Source of the DNA: Roseibium limicola
GTDB lineage: Bacteria; Pseudomonadota; Alphaproteobacteria; Rhizobiales; Stappiaceae
Length of the DNA stretch: 64,000 nt
Direction: 5' to 3'
Assembly (NCBI RefSeq): GCF_017313085.1
Contig: NZ_JAFLNF010000002.1
Coordinates: 1-64,000, forward strand
Position 1 is the stretch's first letter. The number at the start of each line of letters is the position of its first letter. The notes below the pieces were generated by a model. The model was not told where the DNA came from, did not search any database, and saw only the letters and a list, made by a program, of their open reading frames with translations. The position numbers and the translations under genes were made by a program. Shown here in pieces: positions 7,823 through 47,984 of this stretch.

Positions 7823-7965
7823 CGTATTTCCTCCCATGATAGACGTTTCCCGGTGAAGGTTTTGGTTATGTGGCAAGCTTTATTCTTATGGGTTGCCTGC
7901 TCTTCATGTCGGTCAGTTTAGGAAATCTATTTTTTTAGCGGAAATATTAAATAGAGAGACGGGCT

Positions 7966-7980
7966 ATAAGGTGGACTTAT
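7966..7980. promoter_or_regulatory. LysR-type operator (T-N11-A palindrome) between divergent genes
   Basis: ATAAG-GTGGA-CTTAT is a perfect inverted repeat with the T-N11-A layout typical of LysR-family binding sites. It lies 28 nt upstream of the divergent LysR gene and about 144 nt upstream of the binding-protein ATG. A near-identical element, also preceded by GACGGG, lies at 14286-14304 beside the other LysR gene. Confidence 0.7.
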
Positions 7981-8007
7981 GGCTAGAATTGCGCTTCCCT
8001 TCTGCTC

Positions 8008-31250: not shown

Positions 31251-32285
31251 TTAGGATTTTGACGCGCGCGGGACTGCAACGCTGTTGCGGATCTTGAGCG
31301 AGACCGGAAGCACAGTTTCCCGTGGCACCTGATCGGCATGGCCATCAAGGATCTTGGCCAGAAGCCGTGCCGCTTGGGCCCCGGCTTCAAACTGTTCGAT
31401 CCGCACGGTCGTCAGTCCGGGGGGGATCAGGTCAAGAAACGCCATGTCGTTGAAGCCGGTAATGGAAATGTCTGCCGGACATTTGACCCCGGTGCGGGTG
31501 CAATGGTCGATGGCTCCCAACGCCAATCGGTCATTGGCGCAAAGGACGGCGGTGGTTTCCGGCGCACGGCTGAGAATGGCCTGCGTGCAGCGACGCCCCT
31601 CAGCTTCCTCGAAACGGTCGGCTTCCTCGATCACCAGATCGTCGCGGGCCATGCCGTAATCGGCCGTCACCGCCAGAAAAGCCTGCTGGCGCAAGAGGCC
31701 CGTGGAGAGGTCTGGTGGTCCCGACAGGTGGGCAATATTCCGATGCCCTGCCTGATACAACAGCTCGAAGATTTGCCGGATACCGGCTTCCTCGTCGTTG
31801 ATGACATAGGGGATGTCGGCTTCCTCGACCTTTCGGTTGAGGGTCACTACCGGCAATCCCTGATGTGCAACCTCAACGATGTTCGGGGCGCTTCGCAACA
31901 CGGCGGTGTGGATGATTCCATCGACGCCCCGGTCTTGCAGGGTTTCGATCAGCCGCTTTTCCCGATCGCTGTTACCGTCTGTGTTGACGATGATCGCCGC
32001 ATAGCCCAGCGGCTCCATGACGCTCTCGATACCGCGTACGATGGCAGGAAAGATCATGTTGGTAATGTCGGGGATCATGACGCCAATGGTCATGCTCTTC
32101 TGCTTGCGCAGGCTGAAGGCGATGCGGTTCGGCCGATAGTCCAGCCGTTCAGCCGCTTCGCGGATCTTGTCGACCACTTCCTCGGTGATGCTGCCCCGCT
32201 TCTGCGGATCCAGAGCCCGGGAGACAGTCGAGACATGCACGCCGGTTTCCCGGGCAATGTCCTTGAGGGTTGTGCGTCTCGTCAT
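31251..32285 (-). CDS. LacI-family transcriptional regulator
   Basis: This 344-aa regulator has an N-terminal HTH and hinge (TLKDIARETGVHVSTVSRAL, then DYRPNRIAFSLRK) and a periplasmic-binding-protein-like inducer domain (MTIGVMIPDITNMIFPAIVRG; CANDRLALGAI). I chose the ATG at 32285 because GGAAGGAT precedes it; the frame is open for 68 further codons upstream but those cover operator DNA. It is divergent from the ABC importer and aromatic-catabolism genes starting at 32882. Its control region contains several GCAATCGATTGC-type palindromes, so it is likely the repressor of that operon and of itself. Confidence 0.93.
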   Translation of the reverse strand: MTRRTTLKDIARETGVHVSTVSRALDPQKRGSITEEVVDKIREAAERLDYRPNRIAFSLRKQKSMTIGVMIPDITNMIFPAIVRGIESVMEPLGYAAIIVNTDGNSDREKRLIETLQDRGVDGIIHTAVLRSAPNIVEVAHQGLPVVTLNRKVEEADIPYVINDEEAGIRQIFELLYQAGHRNIAHLSGPPDLSTGLLRQQAFLAVTADYGMARDDLVIEEADRFEEAEGRRCTQAILSRAPETTAVLCANDRLALGAIDHCTRTGVKCPADISITGFNDMAFLDLIPPGLTTVRIEQFEAGAQAARLLAKILDGHADQVPRETVLPVSLKIRNSVAVPRASKS

Positions 32286-32329
32286 GATCCATCCTTCCGA
32301 TTTCTGTATAGCTGCGGAACGGCGATGGC

Positions 32330-32341
32330 GCAAACGATTGC
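32330..32341. promoter_or_regulatory. LacI-type operator O1 (one mismatch)
   Basis: GCAAACGATTGC matches the perfect palindrome GCAATCGATTGC at 11 of 12 positions. It is 45 nt upstream of the LacI ATG on the minus strand. Its flanks (GC before, ATAA after) mirror those of O2 in inverted orientation. Confidence 0.65.
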
Positions 32342-32384
32342 ATAATTCATTTGACGGGCGGATTGAGGTTGTGTTAACGGTTAT

Positions 32385-32396
32385 GCAATCGATTGC
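32385..32396. promoter_or_regulatory. LacI-type operator O2 (perfect)
   Basis: GCAATCGATTGC is a perfect 12-bp even palindrome with the central CG typical of LacI-family sites. Centre-to-centre distance from O1 is 55 bp. Confidence 0.75.
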
Positions 32397-32659
32397 GCAA
32401 ACTTGCAGCGAGCGTGCTGCGGAACAGGAGATATGCCGGTCTCCGGTACGAAAACGGAAAGCGACGGTATTCATAGTGGCTGTTCGCACGGTTTGTGTTT
32501 CGATGACAGAGCTTCTCCTTGGGAGGGGAGAGGCTCAACCGGTCTGAAGCGGCGAGGGGCCACTGACGGCTGGTTTGGGAGGATCAAGGTGAGGATCATG
32601 ATCAGATCTGAAGTCTTGCGCGCCGGGTATCTTGGCGTGTGTTTTCTTCCGAATAGCTA

Positions 32660-32881: not shown

Positions 32882-34171
32882 ATGATGAAACGAGCAATTT
32901 GGACGGTGGCGGGACTGATGTCCGTCAGCATGCTTGCGCTTGGCGCAAGTGCCCAGGCGGCAGAGCCGCTGAAGATCGGTGCTAGCCTGCCGCTGACTGG
33001 TGGGTTTTCCATCGCAGGGACGAAGCATCAGCAAGGCTATGAGCTCTGCGTCGACACGATCAACGAGCGCGGTGGAATTCTGGGGCGGCAAGTTGAGCTT
33101 CTGGTGTCCGACAACCGCTCTGATCCGGCCACGGCCATCAATCAGTATGAGCGCTTTATCAACGTTGATGGCGTGGAAGCTGTTTACGGGACATTCTCGT
33201 CGCGCTTGTCCTTTCCAGTGGCAAGCATTCTGGCCAAGAACAACATGGTTCATGCGCTGCCTGCCGGCGGTGCCCTGCGCATCTACACGCAAGGCCATAA
33301 GAATATCTTCTACTTCCAGCCCAACGCTGCTGAATACGTCGGGGCTTCGCTTGCCGGCGTGATTGCCGATCTGGTGCCAGAGGGCGAAAAGCCGAAGACG
33401 GCGGCAGTGGTCTCTGCTGACGACTTCTTTGCCAATGGCGTCTGGTCGGGATTGATGGGCGAGAAGGTGATGGATCCGGCCGATGGCTCGCTGGTACGCG
33501 ACCTGGCACCGGGCTATCTGGCGGAAAACGACATCGAAGTGGTGTTCTCCGAGCGTTGGCCGGAAGAAGGCTACAGCGACTGGCTGAACCTCGCCAATCA
33601 AGTGAAGCGTTCAGGCGCCGAGCTGATCGTCGGTCTGACCGCCTCGGCGGAAGAAGCTGTCCAGCTGACCCGCGCTCTGAAGACAGTCCGTGCAGAGCCC
33701 AAGCTGGTTTACTTCAGCCAGGGAACCCAGGCCGAGTATCTGGAAGGCACTGGCTCAAGTGCGGAAGGTGTGCTGGTTCACACCTCTTGGCACAAGGACG
33801 CGCCGTTTGAATCCGTTCTTGCGGGCGAGCCGTTCTCCAACACCGACTTTGTTGCTGCGTACCAGGAAAAGTTCGGCGCAGTGCCGGATGAAGATGCAGC
33901 CATCCCCTTTGCCGTGTGTCAGGGCATCGAGCAGGCCATCATTGGCGCCGGCTCCACCGACAATACTGCCATGGGCAAGTGGCTGTCCGAGCGGACCAAG
34001 GAAAATCCGGTTCGCACGATCCTCGGACGCTTTAACTGGGATGAACTCGGGCTTCCGGCCAACAAGCCGTTCCTGATGACCCAGTGGAATGATGGAGAAC
34101 TTCAGTTCGTCTACCCCACCGACGAATTTGAAGGCGTCTCGGCCATGTCCTACCCGAAAGGGTCTTTCTAA
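32882..34171 (+). CDS. Branched-chain-type ABC substrate-binding protein
   Basis: This 429-aa periplasmic protein has a Sec signal (RAIWTVAGLMSVSMLALGAS, cleavage near AQA-AE). The mature start LKIGASLPLTGGFSIAGTKHQ and CVDTINERGGILGRQVEL are typical of Peripla_BP_6. AGGGAGGAAC lies just before tandem ATGs; the second (32885) has better spacing. It heads the LacI-controlled operon. Given the downstream ring-cleavage genes, an aromatic acid or related compound is the likely ligand, which is inference from context. Confidence 0.93.
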   Translation: MMKRAIWTVAGLMSVSMLALGASAQAAEPLKIGASLPLTGGFSIAGTKHQQGYELCVDTINERGGILGRQVELLVSDNRSDPATAINQYERFINVDGVEAVYGTFSSRLSFPVASILAKNNMVHALPAGGALRIYTQGHKNIFYFQPNAAEYVGASLAGVIADLVPEGEKPKTAAVVSADDFFANGVWSGLMGEKVMDPADGSLVRDLAPGYLAENDIEVVFSERWPEEGYSDWLNLANQVKRSGAELIVGLTASAEEAVQLTRALKTVRAEPKLVYFSQGTQAEYLEGTGSSAEGVLVHTSWHKDAPFESVLAGEPFSNTDFVAAYQEKFGAVPDEDAAIPFAVCQGIEQAIIGAGSTDNTAMGKWLSERTKENPVRTILGRFNWDELGLPANKPFLMTQWNDGELQFVYPTDEFEGVSAMSYPKGSF

Positions 34172-34181
34172 GACCGGGAGC

Positions 34182-34210
34182 GCGGCCCGGCGCGAAAGTG
34201 ACCGGGCCGC
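34182..34210 (+). promoter_or_regulatory. Stem-loop between binding-protein gene and livG
   Basis: GCGGCCCGG (34182-34190) and CCGGGCCGC (34202-34210) form a perfect 9-bp GC stem with an 11-nt loop, 10 nt after the stop. It is followed by ATCGCTTCTTT rather than a clean T-tract, so it may give partial termination or protect the upstream mRNA. Confidence 0.6.
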
Positions 34211-34249
34211 ATCGCTTCTTTCCGTAAATTCGTGAGCCAGGGTGTCCTC

Positions 34250-34993
34250 ATGCTCGAAGTACAAAGCCTTGCCAAGCATTTTGGCGGGATCCGCGCCGTC
34301 GACGGCTGCAGTTTCATGGTTCCCAAAGGCAGCATCACGGCCCTTATCGGTCCCAATGGTGCAGGCAAGACGACAGCATTCAACTGTATCAGCCGGACCA
34401 CTCAACCGACATCCGGTCAGGTCCTTCTGGATGGAAAACGCATCGACCAGCTGCGTCCGCACAAGATCACCCGAATGGGTCTGAGCCGGACGTTTCAGAT
34501 CAGCCGCAATCTCGCCGACATGACGGTTCTGGAGAACGTCATCTGCCAGGCGCGGATCGGTGGTTGGAGGGACCTCTTCAAGCCGGCTCTGGGCGCAGAG
34601 GAAGTGGACAAAGCCATGGAGATCCTCGACTTCCTTGGCATCACCCGCATTGCCTTCGAAGATGGCTCCAATCTCTCCTATGGCCAGAAGAAATTGATGG
34701 ATCTGGCGGCGCTCCTGATGAGTGATCCGAAGATCATCCTGCTCGATGAACCTGCCGGGGGCGTCAACCCGACCCTTCTTGAAGAGATCGTCGGCCACAT
34801 TCGCAAACTCAACGACCAGGGCATGACGGTGCTGATCGTCGAACACAACATGGATCTGGTGATGCGCCTGTCCCACAAGATCGTCGTGATGGCGCAAGGT
34901 CGGGTGATCGCCGACGGCAAGCCGGAAGAAATTCGTGAAAACCCGGCCGTCCTCGATGCATATCTCGGCGGTGTCCTTGAGGAGGCTGCATAA
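34250..34993 (+). CDS. livG: Branched-chain-type ABC ATPase LivG
   Basis: This 247-aa ATPase has Walker A GPNGAGKT, signature LSYGQKKLMDLAALL and Walker B IILLDEPAGGVNP. The LivG-specific insertion region is present after the Q-loop. The start is placed at the ATG at 34250 with a weak AGGG seven nt upstream; a GTG at 34232 would add six residues. It energises uptake together with LivF, and its stop overlaps the livF ATG (TAATG). Confidence 0.93.
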   Translation: MLEVQSLAKHFGGIRAVDGCSFMVPKGSITALIGPNGAGKTTAFNCISRTTQPTSGQVLLDGKRIDQLRPHKITRMGLSRTFQISRNLADMTVLENVICQARIGGWRDLFKPALGAEEVDKAMEILDFLGITRIAFEDGSNLSYGQKKLMDLAALLMSDPKIILLDEPAGGVNPTLLEEIVGHIRKLNDQGMTVLIVEHNMDLVMRLSHKIVVMAQGRVIADGKPEEIRENPAVLDAYLGGVLEEAA

Positions 34994-35721
34994 TGAGCGA
35001 ACTCCTGCATGTCTCCAATGTGACCGCCGGCTACGGTGACGGGCCTGCCATTCTCGATGGCGCGGAGCTGACCGTTGAGCCGGGCAAGGTTCACTGCATC
35101 ATCGGCCCCAACGGCGCCGGTAAATCGACCCTTCTGAAAGCCATCTGCGGCATGCTGAAAGTGCGCAAGGGCGATGTTTTGTATCGCGGCGAAAGCCTCA
35201 AGGGCCTGCGCCCGGATCAGGTCCTGCGTAAGGGCATCTGCTTCGTACCTCAGGAGCGGGCGCTGTTTCCGAAGATGACCGTGCGCGAAAACATGCGTAT
35301 GGGCGGATTTTCGCTCCCTGACACCTCCAATCTGGAAAAGCGTATCGATGAGATCGAGGAGCGCTTTCCGATCCTGAAGGAACGCCGTGACCAACACGCG
35401 GGCACCATGTCTGGTGGCCAGCAACAGACGCTGGCGATGGCCCGCACGATGATCCTCAAGCCCGATATCGTGATGCTTGATGAGCCGTCGCTCGGCCTGG
35501 CGCCGAAGATTGTACAGGAAATGTTCGACATCATGCGGATGATGGCCGCCGAAGGCATCACCATTCTGCTGGTTGAGCAGAATGCTCTGATGGGGCTGAA
35601 GAATTCCGACTGGGGCGTGGTTCTGGATCTGGGGAAGACGTTGTTTTCCGGACCGGCCAAGGACGTCCTGCAGGATCCGCGCATCCAGGATCTTTATCTT
35701 GGCGGCAGCAAGGCGGCCTGA
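34993..35721 (+). CDS. livF: Branched-chain-type ABC ATPase LivF
   Basis: This 242-aa ATPase has Walker A GPNGAGKS, signature MSGGQQQTLAMARTM and Walker B IVMLDEPSLGLAP. The LivF-type VPQERALFPKMTVREN segment is present. It overlaps livG by one nucleotide and is followed by livH after 11 nt. Unlike the transporter at 3005-6414, all parts are separate genes here. Confidence 0.93.
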   Translation: MSELLHVSNVTAGYGDGPAILDGAELTVEPGKVHCIIGPNGAGKSTLLKAICGMLKVRKGDVLYRGESLKGLRPDQVLRKGICFVPQERALFPKMTVRENMRMGGFSLPDTSNLEKRIDEIEERFPILKERRDQHAGTMSGGQQQTLAMARTMILKPDIVMLDEPSLGLAPKIVQEMFDIMRMMAAEGITILLVEQNALMGLKNSDWGVVLDLGKTLFSGPAKDVLQDPRIQDLYLGGSKAA

Positions 35722-35732
35722 GGAGAGACAAT

Positions 35733-36611
35733 ATGGCAGACATACTTCAAACACTCATTCTCGGCCTTGCACTTGGCGGTGTCTTCGCGCTGATGGGCTC
35801 CGGTCTCAGCCTGGTTTTCGGCGTCATGCGCATCGTCAACCTGGCACACCCGGTGATGATCATTGCCGGTGCTTACGTGGCCTATTGGGGCTTCAAGCTT
35901 TACGGCATCGACCCTCTGGTGATGTTGCCCGTCGCAATCGTCATTCTCGCGGTTATCGGGATCCTTCTTTACAAACTGGTCTTCGAGCGTGAGGCACGCT
36001 CGGCCAAGTATTCCGAGATGACCGTTCTCCTGACCTTCGCCGTGGCAATGATCGTCGAGGGCGCACTTGGTGGGCTCTTTACCAACACCCAGCGCGTGAC
36101 ATCGCCAGCATATGCCACCGACGCCATCTTCATTGGTGACGTGTTCATTCCCACAGGTCAGCTGTACGCAGGCATTCTGTCGCTGGTGATCATCGCCGGC
36201 TTGGCGTTGTTCCTCAAATACTCGCGCTTTGGCTATGCCATCCGCGCGACGACGCAGAACCGCGAAGCTGCCGAACTTCTGGGTGTCAACGTCAGCATGG
36301 TGGCGCTGGTCAGCTTCGCCATCGGTATCGGCCTCGCCGGGGCGGCGGGAAGTCTGGTGTCCTTCGTCTTCTCGTTCTTCCCTGCCAAACACTGGGAGTG
36401 GATCGCTGTTCTCATGTCGCTGGTCGTTCTGGGCGGAATGGGCTCGCTTCTGGGCACGGTTGTCGCCTCGTTCCTGCTCAGTGTGATCGCAGCTTTTGTC
36501 GGTACCTATATCGGGGCAACCTGGTCAACGATGACTTTCTTTCTCGCCCTGTTCCTCATTCTTCTCGTACGGCCCCAGGGGTTGTTCGGTGAAAAGCCGG
36601 AGCTTGCATGA
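35733..36611 (+). CDS. livH: Branched-chain-type ABC permease LivH
   Basis: This 292-aa membrane protein has the LivH N-terminal motif LGGVFALMGSGLSLVFGVMRIVNLAHP and the C-terminal LGGMGSLLGTVVASFLLSVI. GAGGAGAG precedes the ATG. It overlaps livM by 4 nt (ATGA) and forms the transmembrane channel with it. Confidence 0.93.
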   Translation: MADILQTLILGLALGGVFALMGSGLSLVFGVMRIVNLAHPVMIIAGAYVAYWGFKLYGIDPLVMLPVAIVILAVIGILLYKLVFEREARSAKYSEMTVLLTFAVAMIVEGALGGLFTNTQRVTSPAYATDAIFIGDVFIPTGQLYAGILSLVIIAGLALFLKYSRFGYAIRATTQNREAAELLGVNVSMVALVSFAIGIGLAGAAGSLVSFVFSFFPAKHWEWIAVLMSLVVLGGMGSLLGTVVASFLLSVIAAFVGTYIGATWSTMTFFLALFLILLVRPQGLFGEKPELA

Positions 36612-37648
36612 TGTCCATTGCTTTTCAGGATACCTCAAACGTTCTCCAGGCCCGGGCCGAACACAACGCCAAGCTGGCGCTGCGGGCAGACCGCAAGCGG
36701 GTCACCTGGTTCCCGGTCGTGGTGCTGGGCTTGCTTCTGGCCTTGCCGGCGTTGCAGTTCGTCGGGAACTACAACTACGTCCTGCATCTGATCCTCTTCA
36801 CGGCCTGTTATGCGACGATGGCATCAGGCTGGAATATCCTCGGCGGGTTCACCGGCTATATCTCGCTGGGCCATAACGTCTTCTTCTGCATCGGCGGCTA
36901 TTTCGCCGGGATGATCCTGGCCCGTTACGGCGTTTCAACACTCGTGACAGCGCCTTTGGCTGGTTTGATTTGTGCAGCTGTCGGATATCTCATCGGCCGG
37001 ATCACGCTGAAAACCCGCGGTCCGAGCTTCATTATCTCGTCGCTGGCACTGGTGATGATTGCCCGCATTCTCTTCGACAACTGGCACTTCGTTGGTGGCG
37101 CCAACGGTGTTGCCTTGCCGGCAAATGACTTGAGCGTGGTCTGGGCCAAGCTGCCTTACTACTACGCTTTCGTTGTGCTCGCCGCTGCCGCTGTCTTCGT
37201 CAGCTACAAGATCAAGCACTCAAAATTCGGATTGGGCCTGCGGGCTATTTCCAAGGACGAGATCAAGGCGGAAAGCGCCGGCATCGACACCCGTACCTAC
37301 AAGACGCTGGCCTTTGCCATCTCAGCTGCCTTCGTCGGCATGGCCGGGGCGATCTGGGGTGAATATCTCACCTACATCCGCCCTAACATCTTCCTCGTCA
37401 TTCTGGTCAGCGTGAACATGGTTCTGATGTGCATTCTCGGTGGCAAGGGCACGGTTGCCGGTCCGGTTATCGGCGCCATTCTGATAGTTGCCTTCAACGA
37501 GATCTTCGTCGCAACGCTTGGCTCTTCGGAACTCAACATCCTTGCCTCGGGGCTGATCATGGCCCTGGCGCTGATGTTCTTTCCGCTCGGCGTCATCGGA
37601 ACTCTGGCTGCCAAACACCGGTTGCCCAGAATTCTGAACTGGGATTGA
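36608..37648 (+). CDS. livM: Branched-chain-type ABC permease LivM
   Basis: This 346-aa permease has the LivM motif ASGWNILGGFTGYISLGHN, the cytoplasmic coupling loop region GLGLRAISKDEIKAESAGI, and a C-terminal FFPLGVIGTLA segment. About nine hydrophobic helices are visible after a roughly 30-residue charged N-terminus. It completes the importer; enzymes start 12 nt later, so transport and catabolism share one transcript. Confidence 0.93.
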   Translation: MMSIAFQDTSNVLQARAEHNAKLALRADRKRVTWFPVVVLGLLLALPALQFVGNYNYVLHLILFTACYATMASGWNILGGFTGYISLGHNVFFCIGGYFAGMILARYGVSTLVTAPLAGLICAAVGYLIGRITLKTRGPSFIISSLALVMIARILFDNWHFVGGANGVALPANDLSVVWAKLPYYYAFVVLAAAAVFVSYKIKHSKFGLGLRAISKDEIKAESAGIDTRTYKTLAFAISAAFVGMAGAIWGEYLTYIRPNIFLVILVSVNMVLMCILGGKGTVAGPVIGAILIVAFNEIFVATLGSSELNILASGLIMALALMFFPLGVIGTLAAKHRLPRILNWD

Positions 37649-37660
37649 GGAGAATAGGCA

Positions 37661-38455
37661 ATGAGTTTCACGCTCTACAACGCGCCGCAGTCCACCTGTT
37701 CCCAGCGTGTGCGCTTTACTCTGCATGCCAAGGGGTTGGAATTTCAGGAAAACAGGCTGGATCTCTTCAGCGGTGATCAGTTGAAGCCAGAGTATTTGGC
37801 GATCAACCCCAATGGCGTTGTTCCGGCACTGGTGCATGACGACGTTCCGGTGATCGATAGCGCGGTCATCATGGAATACCTCGAGGATATTCACCCGAAC
37901 GTTGTACCCATGCGACCGAAGGATCCAAAGGAATCCGCCCGGATGCGGGCCATGCTGCGCTTCATTGATGAGGTGCCTGCTCCCGCCATTCGCATTCCTT
38001 CGTATAATCTGGCGTTCTTGCCGCATTTTCAGGCCATGAGCGCGGAGTCTTTCCAGACGCTGTGCGACAGCAAGCCGTTGCGCCGCGAGTTTCTCATGAA
38101 GATGGGACGCAGCGGATTTCCTCAGGAAGATATGGACGAAGCCCTGGGTCGGTTGGGGCGGGCGGTGACCCGTCTGAACGACTGGCTGATAGAGAACGGC
38201 GGTCCCTGGATGATGGGCCATCAGCTGACCTATGCCGACATTGCGCTTATGCCGGTGATCGTGCGGATGGACGATATCAACCTGCATGAGATGTGGGCCG
38301 ACAAGCCGATGGTGTCCGACTGGCTGGCTGCGCTCAAGGCGCACCCGGCCTTTGAGGCTACTTATTATCACGGCTCTCTACTGACCGAAAAATACCCGCA
38401 CTTACAGGCGCTGCGTGACGAACGGGCGCAACAACCCGCCGCGAGGTCTGCGTGA
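37661..38455 (+). CDS. Glutathione S-transferase family protein (beta-etherase-like)
   Basis: This 264-aa GST has an N-terminal thioredoxin-like domain (LYNAPQSTCSQRVRFTLHAKG with the Ser-centred active-site region, PNGVVPALVHDD and IDSAVIMEYL for glutathione binding) and a longer all-helical C-terminal domain. The shape recalls LigE/LigF beta-etherases and isomerase-type GSTs of aromatic catabolism. Possible roles are thioether-forming cleavage of an aryl ether or maleyl-type isomerisation. It overlaps the dioxygenase reading frame region and sits directly after the importer genes. The exact reaction is uncertain. Confidence 0.88.
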   Translation: MSFTLYNAPQSTCSQRVRFTLHAKGLEFQENRLDLFSGDQLKPEYLAINPNGVVPALVHDDVPVIDSAVIMEYLEDIHPNVVPMRPKDPKESARMRAMLRFIDEVPAPAIRIPSYNLAFLPHFQAMSAESFQTLCDSKPLRREFLMKMGRSGFPQEDMDEALGRLGRAVTRLNDWLIENGGPWMMGHQLTYADIALMPVIVRMDDINLHEMWADKPMVSDWLAALKAHPAFEATYYHGSLLTEKYPHLQALRDERAQQPAARSA

Positions 38456-38466
38456 TGGAGGCTCAA

Positions 38467-39393
38467 ATGAATACCCGCGTTCCGCCGCAACGGCTGATTG
38501 CCACTGAAGACGACGTGACGCCGATGGTTCTCGCGGCGATGGATCAGACGACTGATCCGCGCTTCAAGGAAATCATCACCTCGCTGGTGCGCCATCTCCA
38601 CGCTTTCATCCAGGAGGTACGTCCGACTGAGGAGGAATACGAGCGCGGCTTGCAGATCCTCAACGCCATTGGCCAGCAAACAGATGACACCCACAATGAG
38701 GCCGTGCTGATCTGTGACGTTCTGGGAGCTTCCACGCTGATTGACCTGATCAACAACGATGGCATGCAGGGCGAAACCATGTCGGCACTGCTCGGCCCGT
38801 TTTATCGCGGCAATGCCCCGCACTGTGGTCACGGCGAAAGCATTGCCCGAAGCAGCACCTCCGGTGATCCGCTGATCCTGAAAGGACGGGTTCTGGACGT
38901 TAACGGTGCACCAATTGCCGGTGCCAAACTTGATGTCTGGCAGGCGTCTCCCGATGGGCTTTATGAAAATCAGGATCGCGAGCAGGATGACTTCAACCTG
39001 CGGGGATTGTTCACCACCAATAAGGATGGCGAATACCTGATCCGGACCACGAAACCCGCCGGGTACCCGGTGCCGGTTCACACCACCACGGGCGATTTGC
39101 TCCGGGCGCAAAACCGTACGCCGATGCGACCCGCGCATGTGCATTTCATCGTCTCGGCGCCTGAGCACAAGACATTGGTTACCCAGATCTTTTCCGACAC
39201 GGATGAGGCGATGATCAGTGATGTGGTCTTCGGCGCCAAGGAACAGATTGCGGGCGATCTGCAACGGCACGATACGCCGATGGCAGATTATCCCGATCAG
39301 GTGCCACCGTTTTACACCTGCACCTATGATTTCATTCTGAAGCCCGGCGTTCCGACGTTTCCCGAGCCGCCGATCAAGGGGAAAGTTTCGTGA
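38467..39393 (+). CDS. Intradiol ring-cleavage dioxygenase (hydroxyquinol 1,2-dioxygenase type)
   Basis: This 308-aa nonheme Fe(III) enzyme has an N-terminal helical dimerisation domain and a catalytic beta-sandwich. The four iron ligands are visible: Tyr in SPDGLYENQD, Tyr in KPAGYPVPVH, and two His in RPAHVHFIVSAP. RPAHVHFIVSAPEHKTLVTQ and the NLRGLF segment favour hydroxyquinol 1,2-dioxygenase over catechol dioxygenase. The product would be maleylacetate if hydroxyquinol is the substrate. I use the ATG at 38467 because GGAGG lies six nt upstream; upstream in-frame ATG/GTG codons are part of that site. The stop overlaps the SDR start (GTGA). Confidence 0.92.
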   Translation: MNTRVPPQRLIATEDDVTPMVLAAMDQTTDPRFKEIITSLVRHLHAFIQEVRPTEEEYERGLQILNAIGQQTDDTHNEAVLICDVLGASTLIDLINNDGMQGETMSALLGPFYRGNAPHCGHGESIARSSTSGDPLILKGRVLDVNGAPIAGAKLDVWQASPDGLYENQDREQDDFNLRGLFTTNKDGEYLIRTTKPAGYPVPVHTTTGDLLRAQNRTPMRPAHVHFIVSAPEHKTLVTQIFSDTDEAMISDVVFGAKEQIAGDLQRHDTPMADYPDQVPPFYTCTYDFILKPGVPTFPEPPIKGKVS

Positions 39394-40136
39394 GCATGAT
39401 TTTGACAGACAAGGTGGCGCTGGTGGTCGGTGGCTCCGGTGGCATTGGGGCAGCCTCTGCCAAGCTTCTGGCAGAGGCCGGATGCAAGGTGGTAATCGGT
39501 TATCGCTCCAATGAGGCGAAGGCAAAATCTCTTCTGCAGGACCTGTCCGGAACCGGGCACAGGGCGCTGCATGTCGATGTGATGGACAGTGCTTCGATTA
39601 TCGCGCTGATTGCCGAGCTGAAAGCGGACTACGGACGGTTGGACATTCTGGTCAATTCCGCAGGCACCACCACGCCTGTGGCCCATGCAGATCTGGACGG
39701 GTTGACCGATGAGATCATCGATGAGGTTTTTGCCTCGAATGTTCGCGGTGTCTTTGCCACCATTCGCGCCAGCGCCGAGTTGCTGAAGGCCAGCGGTGAT
39801 GCGGTCATCATCAACGTGTCCTCGATTGCAGCGTTCAAGGGCTTTGGCTCTTCCGTGGCCTATTGCGGTGCCAAGGCAGCGCTCGATTCCATGACCCATA
39901 CGCTGGCACTGGCTCTGGGGCCGGAAATCCGGATTCTCTCTGTTTCGCCGGGCATGGTCGCGACCGACTTTGTGCCGGGGCGGACACGCGAGCAGGTGGA
40001 AAAAGCCGGCGCTGCGACGCCGCTGAAAAAGGTGGTGGAAGCAGAAGATGTAGCGCGTGCGATTTTCTCAAGCGTTGCTTATCTGACCCATTCGACCGGC
40101 ACCCGGATTGTGGTGGATGCGGGACGGGGGCTCTGA
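39390..40136 (+). CDS. Short-chain dehydrogenase/reductase
   Basis: This 248-aa classical SDR has GGSGGIGAA near residue 14, ILVNSAG near 86, NVSSIAAF with the catalytic Ser, and AYCGAKAA with Tyr and Lys. It starts at GTG overlapping the dioxygenase stop; an ATG two codons later is equally possible. It likely oxidises or reduces an alcohol/carbonyl on the imported aromatic or a ring-cleavage product. It is followed after 3 nt by the BKACE gene. Confidence 0.9.
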   Translation: MSMILTDKVALVVGGSGGIGAASAKLLAEAGCKVVIGYRSNEAKAKSLLQDLSGTGHRALHVDVMDSASIIALIAELKADYGRLDILVNSAGTTTPVAHADLDGLTDEIIDEVFASNVRGVFATIRASAELLKASGDAVIINVSSIAAFKGFGSSVAYCGAKAALDSMTHTLALALGPEIRILSVSPGMVATDFVPGRTREQVEKAGAATPLKKVVEAEDVARAIFSSVAYLTHSTGTRIVVDAGRGL

Positions 40137-40139
40137 GCG

Positions 40140-41018
40140 ATGGCGCGCAAGACAATCATCACCTGTGCTGTCACCGGCAATCTGACCACCCGCGAACAGC
40201 ATTCCGGGTTGCCGGCAACGCCTGAAGAAATCGCGACCGCCTGCCTTGAGGCAGCTGACGCGGGGGCGGCCATTGCCCACATCCACGTGCGGGATCCGCA
40301 GACGGCCAAGCCGTCGATGGAGCTGGAGCTCTACGCCCTGGTGGTGGAGCTTATCCGGCAAAAGAACACGGATCTGATCCTCAATATCACAACGGGGCCG
40401 GGGGGGCGCTTTGTTCCGTCCGACGCGGATCCTTCCGTGGCCGGTCCAGGAACCACCATTCTGCCGCCGGAAAAACGCGTCGAGCATATTGCCCGATTGA
40501 AGCCGGAGATCTGCACGCTGGATTTCAACACCATGAATTCCGGGGCTCAGGTGGTCATCAACACGCCGCGCAATGTGCGGATCATGGCAGAGATTATTCG
40601 CGACAATGGTGTCAAGCCGGAGCTTGAGCTCTTCGACACCGGCGACATCGTTTTGGCCAATGACTTTCTGAAGCAGGGCCTGATCGAGGGGGCGCCCATG
40701 TGCTCGCTGGTGACCGGCGTCAAATACGGGTTGCCCAGCACCCCGGACGCCATGGCCATGGCATCGCGCATGTTACCGCCCAACGCCGCCTGGACCGGTT
40801 TTGGTGTTGGACGTTGGGCCTTTCCGATGCTGGTGCAGTCCTGGCTGCTCGGCGGACATGTGCGCATCGGCATGGAAGACACCGTCTACATTGGCAAGGG
40901 ACAGCTGACGACCGGTAACGGTGAGCTGACGGCCCGCGCCAGAGAATTTATCGAAAAGCTTGGAGGCGAAGTCGCCAGCACCGGAGAGGCCCGGCAGATG
41001 CTGGGTCTCGCCGACTAA
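40140..41018 (+). CDS. Beta-keto acid cleavage enzyme (BKACE, DUF849)
   Basis: This 292-aa TIM-barrel enzyme of the Kce family has the zinc ligands His47 and His49 in AHIHVRDP, and a C-terminal Glu in RIGMEDTVYIGKG. BKACEs transfer the beta-keto fragment onto acetyl-CoA: a beta-keto acid plus acetyl-CoA gives acetoacetate plus a new acyl-CoA. In this operon the natural candidate is 3-oxoadipate or maleylacetate from ring cleavage, which would yield succinyl-CoA or an unsaturated analogue. Known family substrates include several beta-keto acids, but the one used here is inference. Confidence 0.9.
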   Translation: MARKTIITCAVTGNLTTREQHSGLPATPEEIATACLEAADAGAAIAHIHVRDPQTAKPSMELELYALVVELIRQKNTDLILNITTGPGGRFVPSDADPSVAGPGTTILPPEKRVEHIARLKPEICTLDFNTMNSGAQVVINTPRNVRIMAEIIRDNGVKPELELFDTGDIVLANDFLKQGLIEGAPMCSLVTGVKYGLPSTPDAMAMASRMLPPNAAWTGFGVGRWAFPMLVQSWLLGGHVRIGMEDTVYIGKGQLTTGNGELTARAREFIEKLGGEVASTGEARQMLGLAD

Positions 41019-41042
41019 CAGGAAGCGACGGGGAGGAAGCCC

Positions 41043-42047
41043 ATGAATATTCAAAACAACAAGGTCGCCGGTGAGGCCCTCTGGGTCACCGAGAAATCCG
41101 CAGATCTGGACAATCTGCTGATCGACGTCATTGAGGCCGAGCGGCCGCGTCCGGGACCCGGACAGGTGCTGATCGAGATCCGTGCCGCAGGCGTCAACCC
41201 ATCTGACGTAAAGGCCTCGCTCGGCCATATGCCGCATGCCATCTGGCCACGGGTTCCGGGCCGGGATTTTTCCGGTGTCGTCGTCGAGGGACCCTCGCAT
41301 TTGCTCGGCACCGAAGTCTGGGGCGGGGGCGGGGAACTGGGTATCACCCAGAATGGCTCGCACGCCCGTTACATGGCTTTGCCTCAGGCGGCTGTGCGCG
41401 AAAAGCCGGCGAATTTCTCGTTTGAGGAAGCCGGTTCCATCGGCGTTCCGTTCATCACTGCCTTCGAGGGCCTGCAAGAGGCCGGTGGCGTTCAGCCTTG
41501 GGATAATGTTCTGGTGTGTGGCGCCAACGGTAAGGTGGGCCAGGCCGCCATTCAGCTGGCAACCATGGCCGGCGCCAATGTCTTCGGCGTGGAATACAAG
41601 CCGATGGAGTTTCTCGGCCACGCCTCACAGCCGGTCGAAATGTTCGATAGCTCGTCTCAGGATGTCGCCGAGCTGGTGCGCGAAAAGACCGGTGGTCGTG
41701 GCGCCGATATCATTTTCAATACGGTGGGAAGTCCCTATTTCGAGATGGCCAACAAGGCGCTCGCCAGACAAGGGCGGCAGATTTTCATCTCGACCTTTGA
41801 TCGCGCGGTCGACTTCGACATTTTCACCTTCTTCCGGGGGCGTCACAAGTTCATCGGGGTCGATACACTGGCGCTCGACAGTGTCTATGGCGCCCGGATT
41901 TTCGACATGTTGAAGCCGAAGTTCGAGAGCGGCGCGTTGAAGCCTTTCCCGATCACGCCGGAGACGGTTTACGGACTGGCGGATGCGGCAAAGGCCTATG
42001 CCTCGGTTCTGCGTTCGACGCCGGAACGCGTCATCCTCAAACCCTAG
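41043..42047 (+). CDS. MDR-superfamily NAD(P)H-dependent enone/quinone oxidoreductase
   Basis: This 334-aa medium-chain dehydrogenase/reductase has the GroES-like N-terminal domain (GVNPSDVKASLGHMP, RVPGRDFSGVV) and a nucleotide-binding domain with VCGANGKVGQAAIQLA. The Cys/His zinc ligands of alcohol dehydrogenases are absent, so it belongs to the zinc-free quinone/enone reductases that reduce C=C bonds next to carbonyls. In this context it could reduce maleylacetate to 3-oxoadipate. GGGGAGGAAG precedes the ATG. Confidence 0.88.
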   Translation: MNIQNNKVAGEALWVTEKSADLDNLLIDVIEAERPRPGPGQVLIEIRAAGVNPSDVKASLGHMPHAIWPRVPGRDFSGVVVEGPSHLLGTEVWGGGGELGITQNGSHARYMALPQAAVREKPANFSFEEAGSIGVPFITAFEGLQEAGGVQPWDNVLVCGANGKVGQAAIQLATMAGANVFGVEYKPMEFLGHASQPVEMFDSSSQDVAELVREKTGGRGADIIFNTVGSPYFEMANKALARQGRQIFISTFDRAVDFDIFTFFRGRHKFIGVDTLALDSVYGARIFDMLKPKFESGALKPFPITPETVYGLADAAKAYASVLRSTPERVILKP

Positions 42048-42096
42048 CCCGTCAAGCAGAAACAGGCACACGCAAATATCACGAAGGAAGCAAGCC

Positions 42097-42447
42097 GTGC
42101 AGGTAACCCCGATCAACGACGCCAAGGCGTATGAAGCACCGGAACATTACGGCATGGCTTGCCTTCGACTACAGGGAAAAGAAGCCAGCGCGACCTCCGC
42201 AATGTGGGTCGGGCTGTCTCACATTCTGCCCGGTGGGCACACATCCCTGAAAGCTTCCGACCAGGAAAAAATCTACGTGGTCGTGGCCGGAGAAGTGACA
42301 ATCGGCACCGGTCAGGAGACGGCCACTCTTGGCCCTCTGGATTCCTGCGTCATTGCGCCGGGGGAGCCGCGCAAACTGGAAAATCGCACCAATGCGCCGG
42401 CAAGCATTCTTCTTGTCATGGAAGAAGTCAGGCCAACGGACACATGA
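42097..42447 (+). CDS. Small cupin at the end of the aromatic operon
   Basis: This 116-aa cupin has motif 1 (GGHTSLKASDQEKIYVVVAGEVTIGTG) with partial metal-ligand pattern and motif 2 (LDSCVIAPGEPRKLENRTNAPA) lacking the usual His. The metal site is therefore degenerate and a sensing or non-catalytic role is possible. I place the start at a GTG six nt after GAAGGAAG; the frame is open farther upstream but overlaps the MDR gene. It is 49 nt after the MDR stop. Confidence 0.75.
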   Translation: MQVTPINDAKAYEAPEHYGMACLRLQGKEASATSAMWVGLSHILPGGHTSLKASDQEKIYVVVAGEVTIGTGQETATLGPLDSCVIAPGEPRKLENRTNAPASILLVMEEVRPTDT

Positions 42448-44063: not shown

Positions 44064-44879
44064 ATGTACGACCGTAATTCCCCTTTCACGTCAAAACCCT
44101 CCGCTCTCGAACCGCGTCAGAAGACCGAGTTTGCAGAAGAACGTCTGACTCAAGCCATTCTGTGGTGTGAGCTGGCGCCCGGAGCAACGGCGACGGAAGT
44201 GGAGCTTGCGGAAAGGTTCGGCCTGGGACGCGCGGCCACACGTGCTGCTCTGGCGAAACTGTCGGCCTTTGGATTGATGCAACCGATCCCGCGTTTGGGA
44301 TGGCGGACGCTGCCGATGAGCGGAGCTCTGATCGGCCAGGTGATTTCGGCACGTCGTCTGACGGAGATAGCTCTGGCGGATGCCACATTGAGCCCTGAAG
44401 CTTTGGCTGAGGGCGTCAAGCTGGCCGGCATGATCTCTGTCACCGGCGACCGTTGTGAAGTTGGTCTGCTGCCGACCCGTCGTGGATATGAGCGTGATCT
44501 GCTCAATCTGATTGCCTATGACATCAATCCGATCATCGGGAATTTTCTGTCCAGTCTGTGGGACCAGTCGGACAGGATCGTCCGGTTTCTGGAGCTGAGC
44601 GGCGCCAAGCCGATGAGCGCTCTCGATGGGGAGACGCTGATTGCTGCTCTTGCGGAAGGACGGGCCGACGACGTCCGGGCCGCGCTGCTTGAGCATCTCG
44701 ACAGATTTCAAAGCTTCGCCAGTGAAGGACTGCTGAATCACAGCAGCGAACTGGTGTTGGAAGGGGGAGACTTCGACAAGCAGGCAACGTCTAAAAAACA
44801 AGAAAAAGACGAGCCTGCAGACCGACCGATCCGCATCTCCTCGCGTGGACGGTCATCCAGTACGGGGACACAGTCATGA
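44064..44879 (+). CDS. GntR-family transcriptional regulator
   Basis: This 271-aa regulator has a winged HTH (GATATEVELAERFGLGRAATRAALAKL, FGLMQPIPRLGWR) and an FCD-type helical ligand-binding domain. About 40 C-terminal residues are hydrophilic, Lys/Ser/Arg-rich and look disordered. It is the first gene of the peptide-importer operon, overlapping the first binding-protein ATG by 4 nt. An inverted repeat at 44014 is its likely target. The ligand may be the imported compound. Confidence 0.9.
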   Translation: MYDRNSPFTSKPSALEPRQKTEFAEERLTQAILWCELAPGATATEVELAERFGLGRAATRAALAKLSAFGLMQPIPRLGWRTLPMSGALIGQVISARRLTEIALADATLSPEALAEGVKLAGMISVTGDRCEVGLLPTRRGYERDLLNLIAYDINPIIGNFLSSLWDQSDRIVRFLELSGAKPMSALDGETLIAALAEGRADDVRAALLEHLDRFQSFASEGLLNHSSELVLEGGDFDKQATSKKQEKDEPADRPIRISSRGRSSSTGTQS

Positions 44880-46390
44880 ATACCTTCAAGAAAACAGCGC
44901 GCCGCCTGGCGCCGCTGATGCTGTCGGTCGGTCTGGCCTTTGCCGCACCTGCTACCGGGTTCGCAAAGGATCTACTGACGGTCAATCTGGTCAATGAGCC
45001 AGCTACACTGGATCCGCACCAGCAGTGGAATCCGGACAGTTACTACGTGTACCGAAATATCTTCGACAACATGTTGACCCGCGACAACGCGGGGGAAATC
45101 GAACCGCAGATCGCCACCTCCTGGGAGCAGATCAGCGATACGGAAGTCGTCTTCGACCTGCGGGATGATGTTGTCTTCCACGATGGCGAGAAGCTGACGG
45201 CTGACGACGTCGTCTACACCATCGAGCGCATCACCAACCCGGACTTCGCCAGTCCGCAGCTGGGGCAGTTCAACAAGATCATCAAGGCCGAGGCGCTTGA
45301 CGACACCAAGGTCAAGCTAACGACCGACGGCCCGTACCCGGCGCTGCTGGCGCAGCTGGTAAAGCTCTCCATCGTGCCGCAGCACGTCGCCTCGACTATG
45401 TCGAGCGAGGAGTTCAATGCGGCACCTGTCGGCTCCGGACCCTACAAGTTCGTCAAATGGGATCGTGGTGTCGAAGTCGTCGTCGAAATGAACGATGCCT
45501 ACTGGGGTAAAAAAGGCCCGTTCGAGACTGTCTCGTTCAAGGGCGTTCCCGATGCCTCGACCCGCATGGCCAACCTGCAGGCTGGCACCGCAGATCTGGT
45601 GGTGACGTTGAATGCCGATCTGGCCGATCAGCTGGAAGCCAGCGGTCGGGGTGTGGTGAAGAACGTCAACACCGAGCGTGTTGCCTATTTCGCTATGAAC
45701 AGCACGAAGGCACCGCTCGACAACATCGAGCTGCGCCGGGCTATCGGCTATGCCATCGACCGGGAAGGCATTGTCGAAGGTCTGCTAGGCGGCTATCCGA
45801 AAGTCGTTGACCAGATGCTGTCGCCAGCGCATTTCGGCTGGAAGGAAGGCCTGACCGGCTTCACCTACGATCCGGAAAAGGCCAAGGAAATCGTCGCAGG
45901 TCTTGGTGATTCCGCAAAAGCGGAGCTGGAGCTGGCAACCTCGCCGGTCTTCGATCAGCGCGTGGTTCAGGCAATCCAGCAGATGCTCACGGATGTGGGC
46001 CTGAATGCCTCTATCGAGATCGTCGACATGGCAACCTGGTTGAAGGATCAGCAGACCACCAACGATCAGGCGCCGATGCTGACGTTCTCCCGTTGGTCCT
46101 GCGCGTGTCAGGACCCGGATGGCATCATGTATCCGCTGTTGCATTCCTCGTCAAACTGGTCGCGGTTTTCCGATCCGGTGATGGATGAAAAGCTGGATGC
46201 CGCCCGTAGCGAGTTGGATCTGGAAAAGCGTGCTGACCTCTATGCGGAGATCAACATGCTGGCTCTGGAAAAGGTCGCAATCCTGCCGCTCTACCAGGCT
46301 GCGATCATTTACGGCGCCTCCGAGCAGCTGGAGTGGCAGCCGACATCCAACGAAAGCATGTTCCTCAACCGCATGGCTTGGTCGGAATAA
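44876..46390 (+). CDS. Dipeptide/oligopeptide-type ABC substrate-binding protein, first copy
   Basis: This 504-aa SBP_bac_5 protein has a Sec signal (APLMLSVGLAFAAPATGFA-K). The mature start is LLTVNLVNEPATLDPHQQWN, followed by the family motif (VVFHDGEKLTADDVVYTIERI) and GSGPYKFVKWDRG. GGGGA precedes the ATG. A close paralogue follows directly, sharing the same start and ending (NRMAWSE versus NRMSWKD), so this is a tandem duplication with divergence. Substrate specificity is not visible. Confidence 0.93.
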   Translation: MNTFKKTARRLAPLMLSVGLAFAAPATGFAKDLLTVNLVNEPATLDPHQQWNPDSYYVYRNIFDNMLTRDNAGEIEPQIATSWEQISDTEVVFDLRDDVVFHDGEKLTADDVVYTIERITNPDFASPQLGQFNKIIKAEALDDTKVKLTTDGPYPALLAQLVKLSIVPQHVASTMSSEEFNAAPVGSGPYKFVKWDRGVEVVVEMNDAYWGKKGPFETVSFKGVPDASTRMANLQAGTADLVVTLNADLADQLEASGRGVVKNVNTERVAYFAMNSTKAPLDNIELRRAIGYAIDREGIVEGLLGGYPKVVDQMLSPAHFGWKEGLTGFTYDPEKAKEIVAGLGDSAKAELELATSPVFDQRVVQAIQQMLTDVGLNASIEIVDMATWLKDQQTTNDQAPMLTFSRWSCACQDPDGIMYPLLHSSSNWSRFSDPVMDEKLDAARSELDLEKRADLYAEINMLALEKVAILPLYQAAIIYGASEQLEWQPTSNESMFLNRMAWSE

Positions 46391-46396
46391 CGCTCC

Positions 46397-46420
46397 CGGC
46401 CGGCGCTCGCTCGCCGGCCG
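46397..46420 (+). promoter_or_regulatory. GC-rich stem-loop between the two binding-protein genes
   Basis: CGGCCGGCG (46397-46405) and CGCCGGCCG (46412-46420) form a perfect 9-bp stem with a 6-nt loop, 7 nt after the first stop. No T-tract follows. It probably reduces read-through or stabilises the first binding-protein mRNA. Confidence 0.6.
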
Positions 46421-46475
46421 CACTTCTCATGCTCACTCTCAGGCGCTGCGCGCCTCTTTATCCTGACAATGGAGA

Positions 46476-47984
46476 ATGCAGGTGACTTTCTCGACGTTCA
46501 TCAAGGCGGCGGCACTTGCCACCGTCGTCTTTCTGCCGGCCAACGCGGCCCTGGCAAAGGACGATCTGGTCGTCAATCTGGTCAATGAACCAGCGACCCT
46601 CGATCCGCACATGCAGTGGAATCCCGACAGCTATTACGTTTATCGCAACATCTTCGACAACCTCGTCACCCGTGATGATGCCGGCGAGATCGTGCCGCAG
46701 GTCGCCGAAAGCTGGAAGCAGCTGTCCGACACCGAGTTGGAGCTCGACATTCGCGAAGGTATCACCTTTCACGATGGCGAAGCCCTGACTGCCGACGATG
46801 TGGTCTATTCGGTCAAGCGCATCACCGATCCGGAGTTCTCCAGCCCACAGCTCGGCCAGTTCAACTCCATCATTGACGCCAAGAAGATCGATGAGGACAC
46901 AGTTGTCCTGACCACCAAGTCGCCATATCCGGCGCTTCTGGCACAGTTGGTAAAACTTTCCATCGTGCCCGAGCATGTCGCGTCGGAGCTTGGCAAGGAA
47001 GGCTTCAATGAAGCACCTGTCGGCTCAGGCCCATACAAGTTTGCCGGTTGGGATCGTGGTGTTCAGGTCAAGCTGACCCGAAACGATGCCTATTGGGGCG
47101 AGCAGGGTGCATTCAAGACGGTCACGTTTAAGTCTGTTCCCGATGCCTCGACCCGCGTCGCCAACCTGCGTGCAGGCACGGCGGATCTGGTCGTCTCACT
47201 CGACAGCGATCTGGCGATGCAGCTGGAAGGCTCAACCGAGGCTCAAGTGCTTTCAGCTCCGACGGAACGCGTTGGTTTCATGGGCATGAACACGCTTGTG
47301 GCACCTTTGGATGATCCGGAAATCCGCCGAGCTGCCGCGATGGCAATCGATCGGGAAGGTATTGTTGAGGGCATCCTGCGCGGCGGTGAAACCGTTGCCA
47401 GCCAGATGGCGACTTCAGCTCACTTTGGCTTTGTCGACAGTGCCGAGCCAATCCCGTTCGATCTGGAAAAGGCCCGTGAAATTGTTGCAGCCAAGGGGGA
47501 TGCGGCAAAGGTTCCCATGAAGTTCGCCACATCCCCGGTCTATGACCAGCGGATCGTGCAGGCCATCCAGCAGATGTTGAATGAGGCCGGATTTAACGTC
47601 GAGATCTCCATGACTGACATGGCGACCTACCTCAAGGCCGCCCAGAACCCGGATCAGATGGCCCGTCCGCAGCTCAGCTTCGGTCGTTGGTCCTGCGCCT
47701 GTCAGGATGTTGATGGGGTTCAGTACCCGCTGCTGCATTCCAGCTCCAACTGGTCTCGCGTCAACGACCCGGAGCTGGATGCGCTGCTGGAAACCGGTCG
47801 GACCACCCTGGACAAGGAAGCCCGCCTGGCAGCCTACGCCAAGGTGCAGAAGATCGTTGCCGACAACACCTACATCATGCCGCTCTATCAGGCCGCAGCA
47901 CTTTACGGTGCCAGCAACGGTCTTGAATGGCAGCCGACGGCCAATGAAAGCCTCTTCCTTAACCGGATGAGCTGGAAAGACTGA
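46476..47984 (+). CDS. Dipeptide/oligopeptide-type ABC substrate-binding protein, second copy
   Basis: This 502-aa SBP_bac_5 protein has a Sec signal (STFIKAAALATVVFLPANAALA). It is a clear paralogue of the preceding gene: both contain LVVNLVNEPATLDPH-type starts, VYRNIFDN, GSGPYKF and RWSCACQD. The C-terminal halves differ more, as expected for changed ligand choice. It is followed after 11 nt by the first permease gene, without a stem-loop. Confidence 0.93.
   Translation: MQVTFSTFIKAAALATVVFLPANAALAKDDLVVNLVNEPATLDPHMQWNPDSYYVYRNIFDNLVTRDDAGEIVPQVAESWKQLSDTELELDIREGITFHDGEALTADDVVYSVKRITDPEFSSPQLGQFNSIIDAKKIDEDTVVLTTKSPYPALLAQLVKLSIVPEHVASELGKEGFNEAPVGSGPYKFAGWDRGVQVKLTRNDAYWGEQGAFKTVTFKSVPDASTRVANLRAGTADLVVSLDSDLAMQLEGSTEAQVLSAPTERVGFMGMNTLVAPLDDPEIRRAAAMAIDREGIVEGILRGGETVASQMATSAHFGFVDSAEPIPFDLEKAREIVAAKGDAAKVPMKFATSPVYDQRIVQAIQQMLNEAGFNVEISMTDMATYLKAAQNPDQMARPQLSFGRWSCACQDVDGVQYPLLHSSSNWSRVNDPELDALLETGRTTLDKEARLAAYAKVQKIVADNTYIMPLYQAAALYGASNGLEWQPTANESLFLNRMSWKD

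Follow-up and report, generated by a model that had tools for sequence, protein, structure and literature searches.

The canonical hydroxyquinol route uses hydroxyquinol 1,2-dioxygenase, a maleylacetate reductase (MAR) of the iron-type alcohol dehydrogenases, 3-oxoadipate CoA-transferase and thiolase, and the last three enzymes form the standard exit from hydroxyquinol. The stretch analysed here, 64,000 nucleotides of Roseibium limicola (the window, contig C10 of a 4.51 Mb genome), carries an operon with an intradiol ring-cleavage dioxygenase, an SDR oxidoreductase, a BKACE (DUF849), a zinc-free MDR and a small cupin. This five-gene cassette is probably an undescribed route that finishes aromatic breakdown in the place often taken by MAR. 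Two described systems with a BKACE are close to it. In Pseudomonas simiae, the BKACE of the deoxyribonate pathway receives its beta-keto acid from an SDR (PMC6365646, available part). According to the accessible portion of the preprint PMC12871164, BsfD acetylates 3-oxo-4-phosphonobutanoate without cleavage, which was tied to Phe166 replacing Tyr and to a loop with Arg91; its authors gave Tyr at the Phe166 position for all BKACE sequences. Open-access PMC full texts were searched for BKACE under its various names in connection with intradiol, hydroxyquinol, 3-oxoadipate or maleylacetate, and no such route turned up among the papers listed. Each enzyme family is known; the open-access literature searched describes neither this combination of them nor how widely it is conserved.

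The dioxygenase gene (38452..39393, +) matched PF00775 with 144 bits (cut-off 27.3) and PF04444 with 89.5 bits (cut-off 27); the N and C domains of catechol dioxygenases were present, and the Fe ligands were Y171, Y205, H229 and H231. The SDR (39390..40136, +; PF13561, 157.8 bits) had the motif GGSGGIG together with S144, Y158 and K162. In the BKACE (40140..41018, +; PF05853, 306 bits, cut-off 24.8), H47-x-H49 and E246 aligned with the Zn ligands of BsfD, and R90 and F165 were present. The MDR (41043..42047, +), of C=C reductase or quinone-reductase type, was above the cut-offs of PF00107, PF08240 and PF13602. Zinc MDR enzymes carry a GHE motif; since the window protein had a single Cys (C159) and GRD at the place of GHE, it lacks a catalytic zinc site, with a predicted NAD(P) fold. 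Genes overlapped by 4 bases between glutathione S-transferase (GST) and dioxygenase and between dioxygenase and SDR, and the gaps were 3 bases from SDR to BKACE, 24 from BKACE to MDR and 49 from MDR to cupin. This spacing from GST to cupin, with no gap above 49 bases, is as in one operon. A preliminary description of this DNA had claimed one operon with an intradiol dioxygenase, a zinc-free MDR and a BKACE with its His-x-His site, and all three were found in place with their key residues. The GST, whose start at 37661 is where that description began, the SDR, the cupin, a LacI-type regulator and an importer were not named in it.

A search with the window dioxygenase through 297 genomes of the order gave a match at 1e-30 in 96 of them. 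Flanking sequence was taken for 20 of these loci, namely the top 18 and two others, and 11 of the 20 had dioxygenase, SDR, BKACE, MDR and cupin in that order. A profile of these 11 cassette dioxygenases led to at least 80 named loci; all counts over 80 loci refer to the matches listed, and the named loci and searched genomes overlap (e.g., L083/L057), both entering the locus counts and the dioxygenase and BKACE alignments. Gene calling by our own script gave shadow open reading frames in high-GC loci, and therefore the cassette-gene and GST counts rest on tblastn with fixed limits, while counts of other neighbour genes are lower bounds. A BKACE of the window type was present in 74 of the 80 loci, the SDR in 71, the MDR in 70, the cupin in 66 and all four in 62. 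Among the six loci without BKACE, L090, L111, L123 and L162 reached a contig edge at most 0.9 kb from the dioxygenase, and L153 and L160 were real exceptions. The 74 BKACE-bearing loci carried 35 genus or record labels (23 alphaproteobacterial, 10 betaproteobacterial and two unassigned); the cassette occurs in many soil and marine Proteobacteria. The SDR may be replaceable, because in L094, L106, L132 and L150 none was found in the interval from dioxygenase to BKACE; L094 and L106 had one about 8 kb off.

The control set comprised 40 loci, taken with flanks, whose dioxygenases were hydroxyquinol-type and 36–44% identical to that of the window (canonical range). With the same tblastn limits, MAR was found in 21 of them, a cupin in one and no MDR, SDR or window-type BKACE in any; four (L216, L219, L222, and L247) had a BKACE of other subfamilies (30–33% identity). 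A LacI relative (at least 35%) was located no more than 8 kb from the dioxygenase in 66 of the 80 named loci vs. one of the 40 control loci. The 80 loci were picked by similarity to cassette dioxygenases, by which the high frequency is partly built in, and therefore the control comparison outweighs the high percentage. This comparison shows that the conserved order is more than a chance neighbourhood, and the gene order for which the preliminary description proposed a search across genomes was common in relatives, unlike in the control loci. In Paraburkholderia loci (e.g., L128, L130, L139, and L142), a hexapeptide-repeat gene stood between BKACE and MDR; the L130 copy matched PF00132, and the label PaaY/gamma-carbonic-anhydrase-like was given by reading.

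The absence of MAR, CoA-transferase and thiolase from the window, also claimed earlier, was borne out by genome searches (PF00465, PF01144 and pcaF), which gave no match on contig C10. A close MAR was not found in the window genome: there were five PF00465 matches, and MAR queries reached 28–34% identity only. Four of the five PF00465 proteins were read; their GGGSxxDxxK stretches stood at the place of GGGSTTGLGKAIA in the two MARs read. The idea of a close MAR kept elsewhere in the genome was rejected on the PF00465 search, the low identities and the missing GGGSTTGLGKAIA in the four proteins read. Nine of the 15 cassette genomes tested likewise had no MAR match above 36% identity. In the other six, a MAR of 49–61% was located near another dioxygenase in the canonical range (in G172, about 6.6 kb apart). 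Contig C13 of the window genome carried pobA-, pcaB-, pcaF-, pcaI-, pcaJ-, pcaG-, pcaH-, pcaC- and pcaD-like genes in one group; genes outside the family searches were named from their translations and neighbourhood. A complete canonical set elsewhere, which the preliminary description regarded as speaking against its route if induced with the operon, was thus present in its pcaIJF part, and no close MAR was found to go with it. The non-canonical lower pathway proposed there was supported in part and gained from the conserved order and from the lack of a close MAR in the window genome and in the nine others.

In sequence, the window BKACE was closest among solved proteins to BsfD (9ZSC; 368.6 bits), followed by 3c6c (267 bits). 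Its predicted structure, a barrel fold, was good (pLDDT 88.3), with 3c6c as the best Foldseek match; 9ZSC was not among the Foldseek matches listed. Among NCBIfam models, it scored 231.9 bits for Kce (cut-off 382) and 184.8 bits for the 3,5-dioxohexanoate enzyme (cut-off 430), below both. Proteins above the cut-off of the 3-oxoadipate:acetyl-CoA acetyltransferase model NF053568 (350 bits) were found in L247 (7864-8697, 497 bits), L222 (6159-6989, 489 bits) and L219 (3890-4720, 494 bits), each near a MAR-side hydroxyquinol-type dioxygenase, with MAR in L247 and L222. A large gene stood just before the dioxygenase in these two loci, and in L247 it encoded a flavin adenine dinucleotide (FAD) aromatic-ring hydroxylase (PF01494, 372 bits). 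Hydroxylase, dioxygenase, MAR and 3-oxoadipate-type BKACE would together make the pathway of the preliminary description with MAR kept; no description of this combination was found in open-access PMC full text. An exit without CoA-transferase is thus possible in the canonical branch too (L247, L222, and L219), and the pairing supports the logic of the preliminary description independently, by convergence. The earlier suggestion that the BKACE could act on 3-oxoadipate found a parallel in three other loci, but the window BKACE itself was below the cut-off of that model. BKACEs of the 3,5-dioxohexanoate type were also observed near hydroxyquinol-type dioxygenases in L222 (10723-11649, 546 bits) and L216 (3660-4586, 541 bits), and the window genome had one (L075, 6970-7905, 549 bits) among SDR and branched-chain-type importer genes.

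In BsfD numbering, Phe166 was present in all 88 cassette BKACEs, in 17 of 17 other window-like ones and in four of four of the 3-oxoadipate type. Arg91 was present in 88 of 88, 16 of 17 and four of four, respectively, although its placement in the 3-oxoadipate-type proteins, which have a short loop there, is alignment-dependent. Kce and all four dioxohexanoate-type BKACEs had Tyr and no Arg, and 3c6c had Phe and no Arg. The combination of Arg and Phe could be a mark of beta-keto diacid substrates, judged from two specificities, one of which is known from its NCBIfam name alone. Phe165 alone was rejected as a sign of non-cleaving chemistry: Phe occurred in all four proteins above the 3-oxoadipate cut-off and in the solved, uncharacterised 3c6c. 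The 17 of 105 window-like BKACEs without a cassette-type dioxygenase nearby had mixed neighbours, which pointed to no particular substrate (six loci read).

Asp83 has a role in hydroxyquinol binding in the solved hydroxyquinol dioxygenase 1TMX, and residue D89 of the window dioxygenase aligned with it (1TMX positions were counted along the printed alignment). The alignment was made from 153 dioxygenase rows, from which L058 was dropped, leaving 152 in four groups; two PDB rows were in none. Asp was kept at this position in 88 of 88 cassette rows and in 27 of 27 MAR-linked rows, and Gly was found there in seven of the 12 rows of at least 45% identity without a cassette. Typical of the cassette dioxygenases compared with the MAR-linked ones were N82, A112, L113, R119 and Q245; R119 was present in all 88 cassette rows and also in four of the 27 MAR-linked rows. 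A maximum-likelihood tree was built by a quick search without bootstrap from 150 rows (L058, L103, and L160 left out), thinned at 85% to 99, plus two PDB sequences; it contained two long rows (L219_926 and L243_1394). MAR-linked rows, 3n9t and 1tmx were on one side of a branch (SH-aLRT 100, length 0.73), and the 52 cassette rows were outside. One label change separated cassette from MAR-linked dioxygenases, and the window dioxygenase did not group with the characterised hydroxyquinol dioxygenases (3n9t and 1tmx); it belonged to an own group beside them. Six dioxygenases without a cassette (L061, L066, L068, L071, L072, and L153) grouped separately on the cassette side. For the window dioxygenase, AlphaFold gave a poor model (pLDDT 61.3).

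From these observations we infer a pathway in three steps. The dioxygenase would cleave the ring of a hydroxyquinol-type compound between adjacent hydroxyls to give maleylacetate or a close relative, and the MDR would reduce the conjugated C=C bond to give 3-oxoadipate or a homologue. The BKACE, with zinc and acetyl-CoA, would then split the resulting beta-keto diacid, with acetoacetate and a CoA ester (succinyl-CoA for the plain substrate) as products. Opening at a hydroxyquinol-like diol is suggested by the kept Fe ligands and the Asp at the Asp83 position and, weakly, by an amidohydrolase type (45–46% identical) common to MAR-type loci (L220, L221, L223, and L246) and cassette loci (L060, L065, and L089). 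The MDR and BKACE steps are proposed from chemistry and gene content, with maleylacetate as a putative substrate of the MDR. The SDR might serve in redox reactions of acetoacetate or of a precursor, the cupin in tautomer handling and the GST in cis-trans isomerisation or quinone protection; these accessory roles are guesses. We put at about even the chance that the operon serves to take up an aromatic (or aromatic-yielding) compound and to degrade it by a lower pathway free of MAR and of 3-oxoadipate CoA-transferase and thiolase. For the exact substrate and step order, our confidence is much lower than for this reading of the module as a whole.

Besides the choice of the 80 loci, several results weigh against this pathway. 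The window BKACE reached only 167 bits for NF053568 and is not in that family, and another protein of the same genome (C13:285253, L077) was above its cut-off with 488.6 bits. The MDR was above no NCBIfam cut-off (quinone_pig3, 120 vs. 297 bits). BsfD, the nearest characterised BKACE, does acetyl transfer rather than cleavage, as far as the accessible portion of PMC12871164 describes it. With pcaIJF elsewhere in the genome, 3-oxoadipate could be handled canonically. The lack of MAR was not confined to cassette carriers: G271, of the genus of the window, had a canonical-range dioxygenase and no close MAR, and 19 of the 40 control loci had no MAR in the stretch examined, some being cut by contig ends. 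The amidohydrolase link is thin, for this type was found within 7 kb in only one of the 80 named loci (vs. four of 40 control loci). The SDR is without an obvious task if the substrate is plain hydroxyquinol. Because the cassette dioxygenases differ from the MAR-linked ones at several aligned positions (1TMX 76, 106, 107, 113, 199, and 237), the ring substrate may be other than plain hydroxyquinol.

Four other readings were weighed; their probabilities overlap and need not add up to one. The last point leads to a substituted (e.g., carboxylated or aminated) hydroxyquinol-like ring or an N-heteroaromatic, with MDR, SDR, BKACE and cupin handling a substituted beta-keto diacid. The five typical residues fit such a ring, as do the molybdenum hydroxylase, amidohydrolase or alpha/beta-hydrolase genes near some cassettes, and the coexistence of a MAR-type dioxygenase in six of the 15 cassette genomes argues against simple redundancy. 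However, none of the four Fe ligands is lost and the Asp83 position is still Asp, R119 is not exclusive to cassettes and the amidohydrolase type also belongs to MAR-type loci; we hold this reading to be possible but rather doubtful. Another order of steps is somewhat less probable and in our judgement unlikely: the BKACE would attack maleylacetate first, giving acetoacetate and maleyl- or fumaryl-CoA, and the MDR would reduce the enoyl-CoA to succinyl-CoA, so that 3-oxoadipate is never made. Maleylacetate is already a beta-keto acid, and among the solved relatives of the MDR are enoyl-thioester reductase domains from polyketide synthases and fatty acid synthases. The hexapeptide-repeat protein that several Paraburkholderia loci encode between BKACE and MDR could be a thioesterase. 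The cassette BKACE is also unlike the 3-oxoadipate-type one that occurs beside MAR-side dioxygenases and in the window genome itself; yet cassette dioxygenases cluster together, and the constant BKACE type may reflect inheritance instead of substrate choice. The GST-like protein may form the trans isomer beforehand; the GST was found in only 24 of the 80 named loci. This order differs from the proposed pathway in the sequence of steps only, and it would amount to a second, widespread lower pathway with the reduction made on the CoA ester.

The likeness of the BKACE to BsfD, its best solved match by sequence with Arg91, Phe166 and the loop insertion in common, could mean acetyl transfer to a beta-keto diacid and decarboxylation to a 1,3-diketone without cleavage. 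The same Arg and Phe in the four proteins above the 3-oxoadipate cut-off indicate that these residues may not be diagnostic of acetyl transfer, and a diketone would make little sense in a catabolic operon, which leaves this reading very improbable. Even less credit was given to an ordinary accessory set, in which an unrecognised reductase and pcaIJF handle the product elsewhere and the cassette serves redox protection and side products. The pca cluster on C13 and the MAR-less control loci are in line with it, but the order is conserved in two classes and nine of 15 cassette genomes have no close MAR. The MAR-free pathway with reduction before the BKACE step was kept as the working proposal.

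The cassette is the end of a longer row of genes on the forward strand (32882-42447). It begins with a branched-chain-type ABC importer: a substrate-binding protein (32882..34171, +; PF13458, 130 bits), a LivG-like ATPase (34232..34993, +; PF00005, 103.6 bits; PF12399, 44.5 bits), a LivF-like ATPase (34993..35721, +; PF00005, 120 bits), a LivH-like permease (35733..36611, +; PF02653, 113 bits) and a LivM-like permease (36608..37648, +; PF02653, 131.9 bits). The gene of the LacI-type regulator (31251..32489, −; PF00356, 47 bits; PF00532, 108 bits) diverges from the importer and enzyme genes. Importers differed between cassette loci and comprised the branched-chain type, Bug-type binding proteins, and sugar-type ABC and DctA-like ones, the last two named by reading translations. 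The accessory GST (37661..38455, +) is LigF-like, with LigF 4xt0 as the top solved chain and GST_N/GST_C models above their cut-offs; all 24 named loci with a GST also had the importer type of the window. Its identity as a maleylacetoacetate isomerase was rejected, as that model gave 82.8 bits (cut-off 171) over the N-terminal part only. Metal cupins carry a His-x-His metal motif; in the small cupin (42097..42447, +; PF07883, 34.1 bits, cut-off 27.2), whose GTG start at 42097 was picked by eye from the sequence, the conserved metal-binding His pair was not found across 10 aligned rows. Searches with the SDR and the cupin returned generic relatives only.

A three-gene molybdenum hydroxylase (2Fe-2S, FAD and molybdenum cofactor subunits) lies at 26030-29735 (+) and is perhaps an upper-pathway hydroxylase; some relatives (e.g., L099 and L107) had two-subunit Mo-enzyme genes close to the cassette. 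In L058, two genes directly upstream of the cassette dioxygenase (7734-8960) were read by eye as LigB- and LigA-like; the LigB-like gene, whose sequence contains unknown letters, had no Pfam match at 1e-8. MAR, a TRZ/ATZ-type amidohydrolase and a hydroxyquinol-type dioxygenase were near one another in L220, L221, L223 (by tblastn only) and L246. By reading, a sugar-type ABC transporter was also recognised in L220, L221 and L246, together with a gene resembling beta-hydroxyacid dehydrogenases, and a LacI in L221. This gene content reads as an upper pathway. Elsewhere in the window there were a separate cluster with thiamine pyrophosphate enzyme, PrpF-type isomerase and TctA transporter genes (15400-20191, −) and, following genes for an M20 amidohydrolase and a GntR protein, two similar binding-protein genes in tandem that were read as dipeptide-type (44876-47984, +).

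If the cassette replaces MAR and the CoA-transferase and thiolase, it would explain how some Proteobacteria without MAR finish the hydroxyquinol pathway. It would also give functions to BKACE and MDR subfamilies that match generic models only, and acetoacetate and an acyl-CoA would then be reached by a further route that needs no CoA-transferase. The canonical hydroxyquinol pathway has a homologous dioxygenase with the same Fe ligands and Asp83 position, and some of its MAR-type loci share branched-chain-type importers, the amidohydrolase and LacI (L221). It differs in that the cassette has MDR and BKACE instead of MAR, with no close MAR found in the window genome, and a dioxygenase of its own group. 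The NF053568 BKACE has the fold family, the Zn ligands and, in the four members looked at, Arg and Phe at BsfD 91 and 166 in common with the window protein, which differs by its score far below the cut-off and by a long loop after strand 3. This bears on BsfD as well, since Arg91 and Phe166, distinctive according to its authors, were found in all four proteins above the 3-oxoadipate cut-off that were looked at (the sequence of the founding enzyme is not among them). BsfD, which belongs to flavophos biosynthesis, shares the insertion and both residues with the window BKACE, but positions 15 and 131 are S and D in BsfD and N at both in 88 of 88 cassette rows, and its context in the accessible portion of PMC12871164 is biosynthetic and phosphonate-related. 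The deoxyribonate pathway likewise has SDR and BKACE in one catabolic operon and acetoacetate as a by-product, whereas its substrate is a sugar acid and neither a dioxygenase nor an MDR is described in the available part of PMC6365646.

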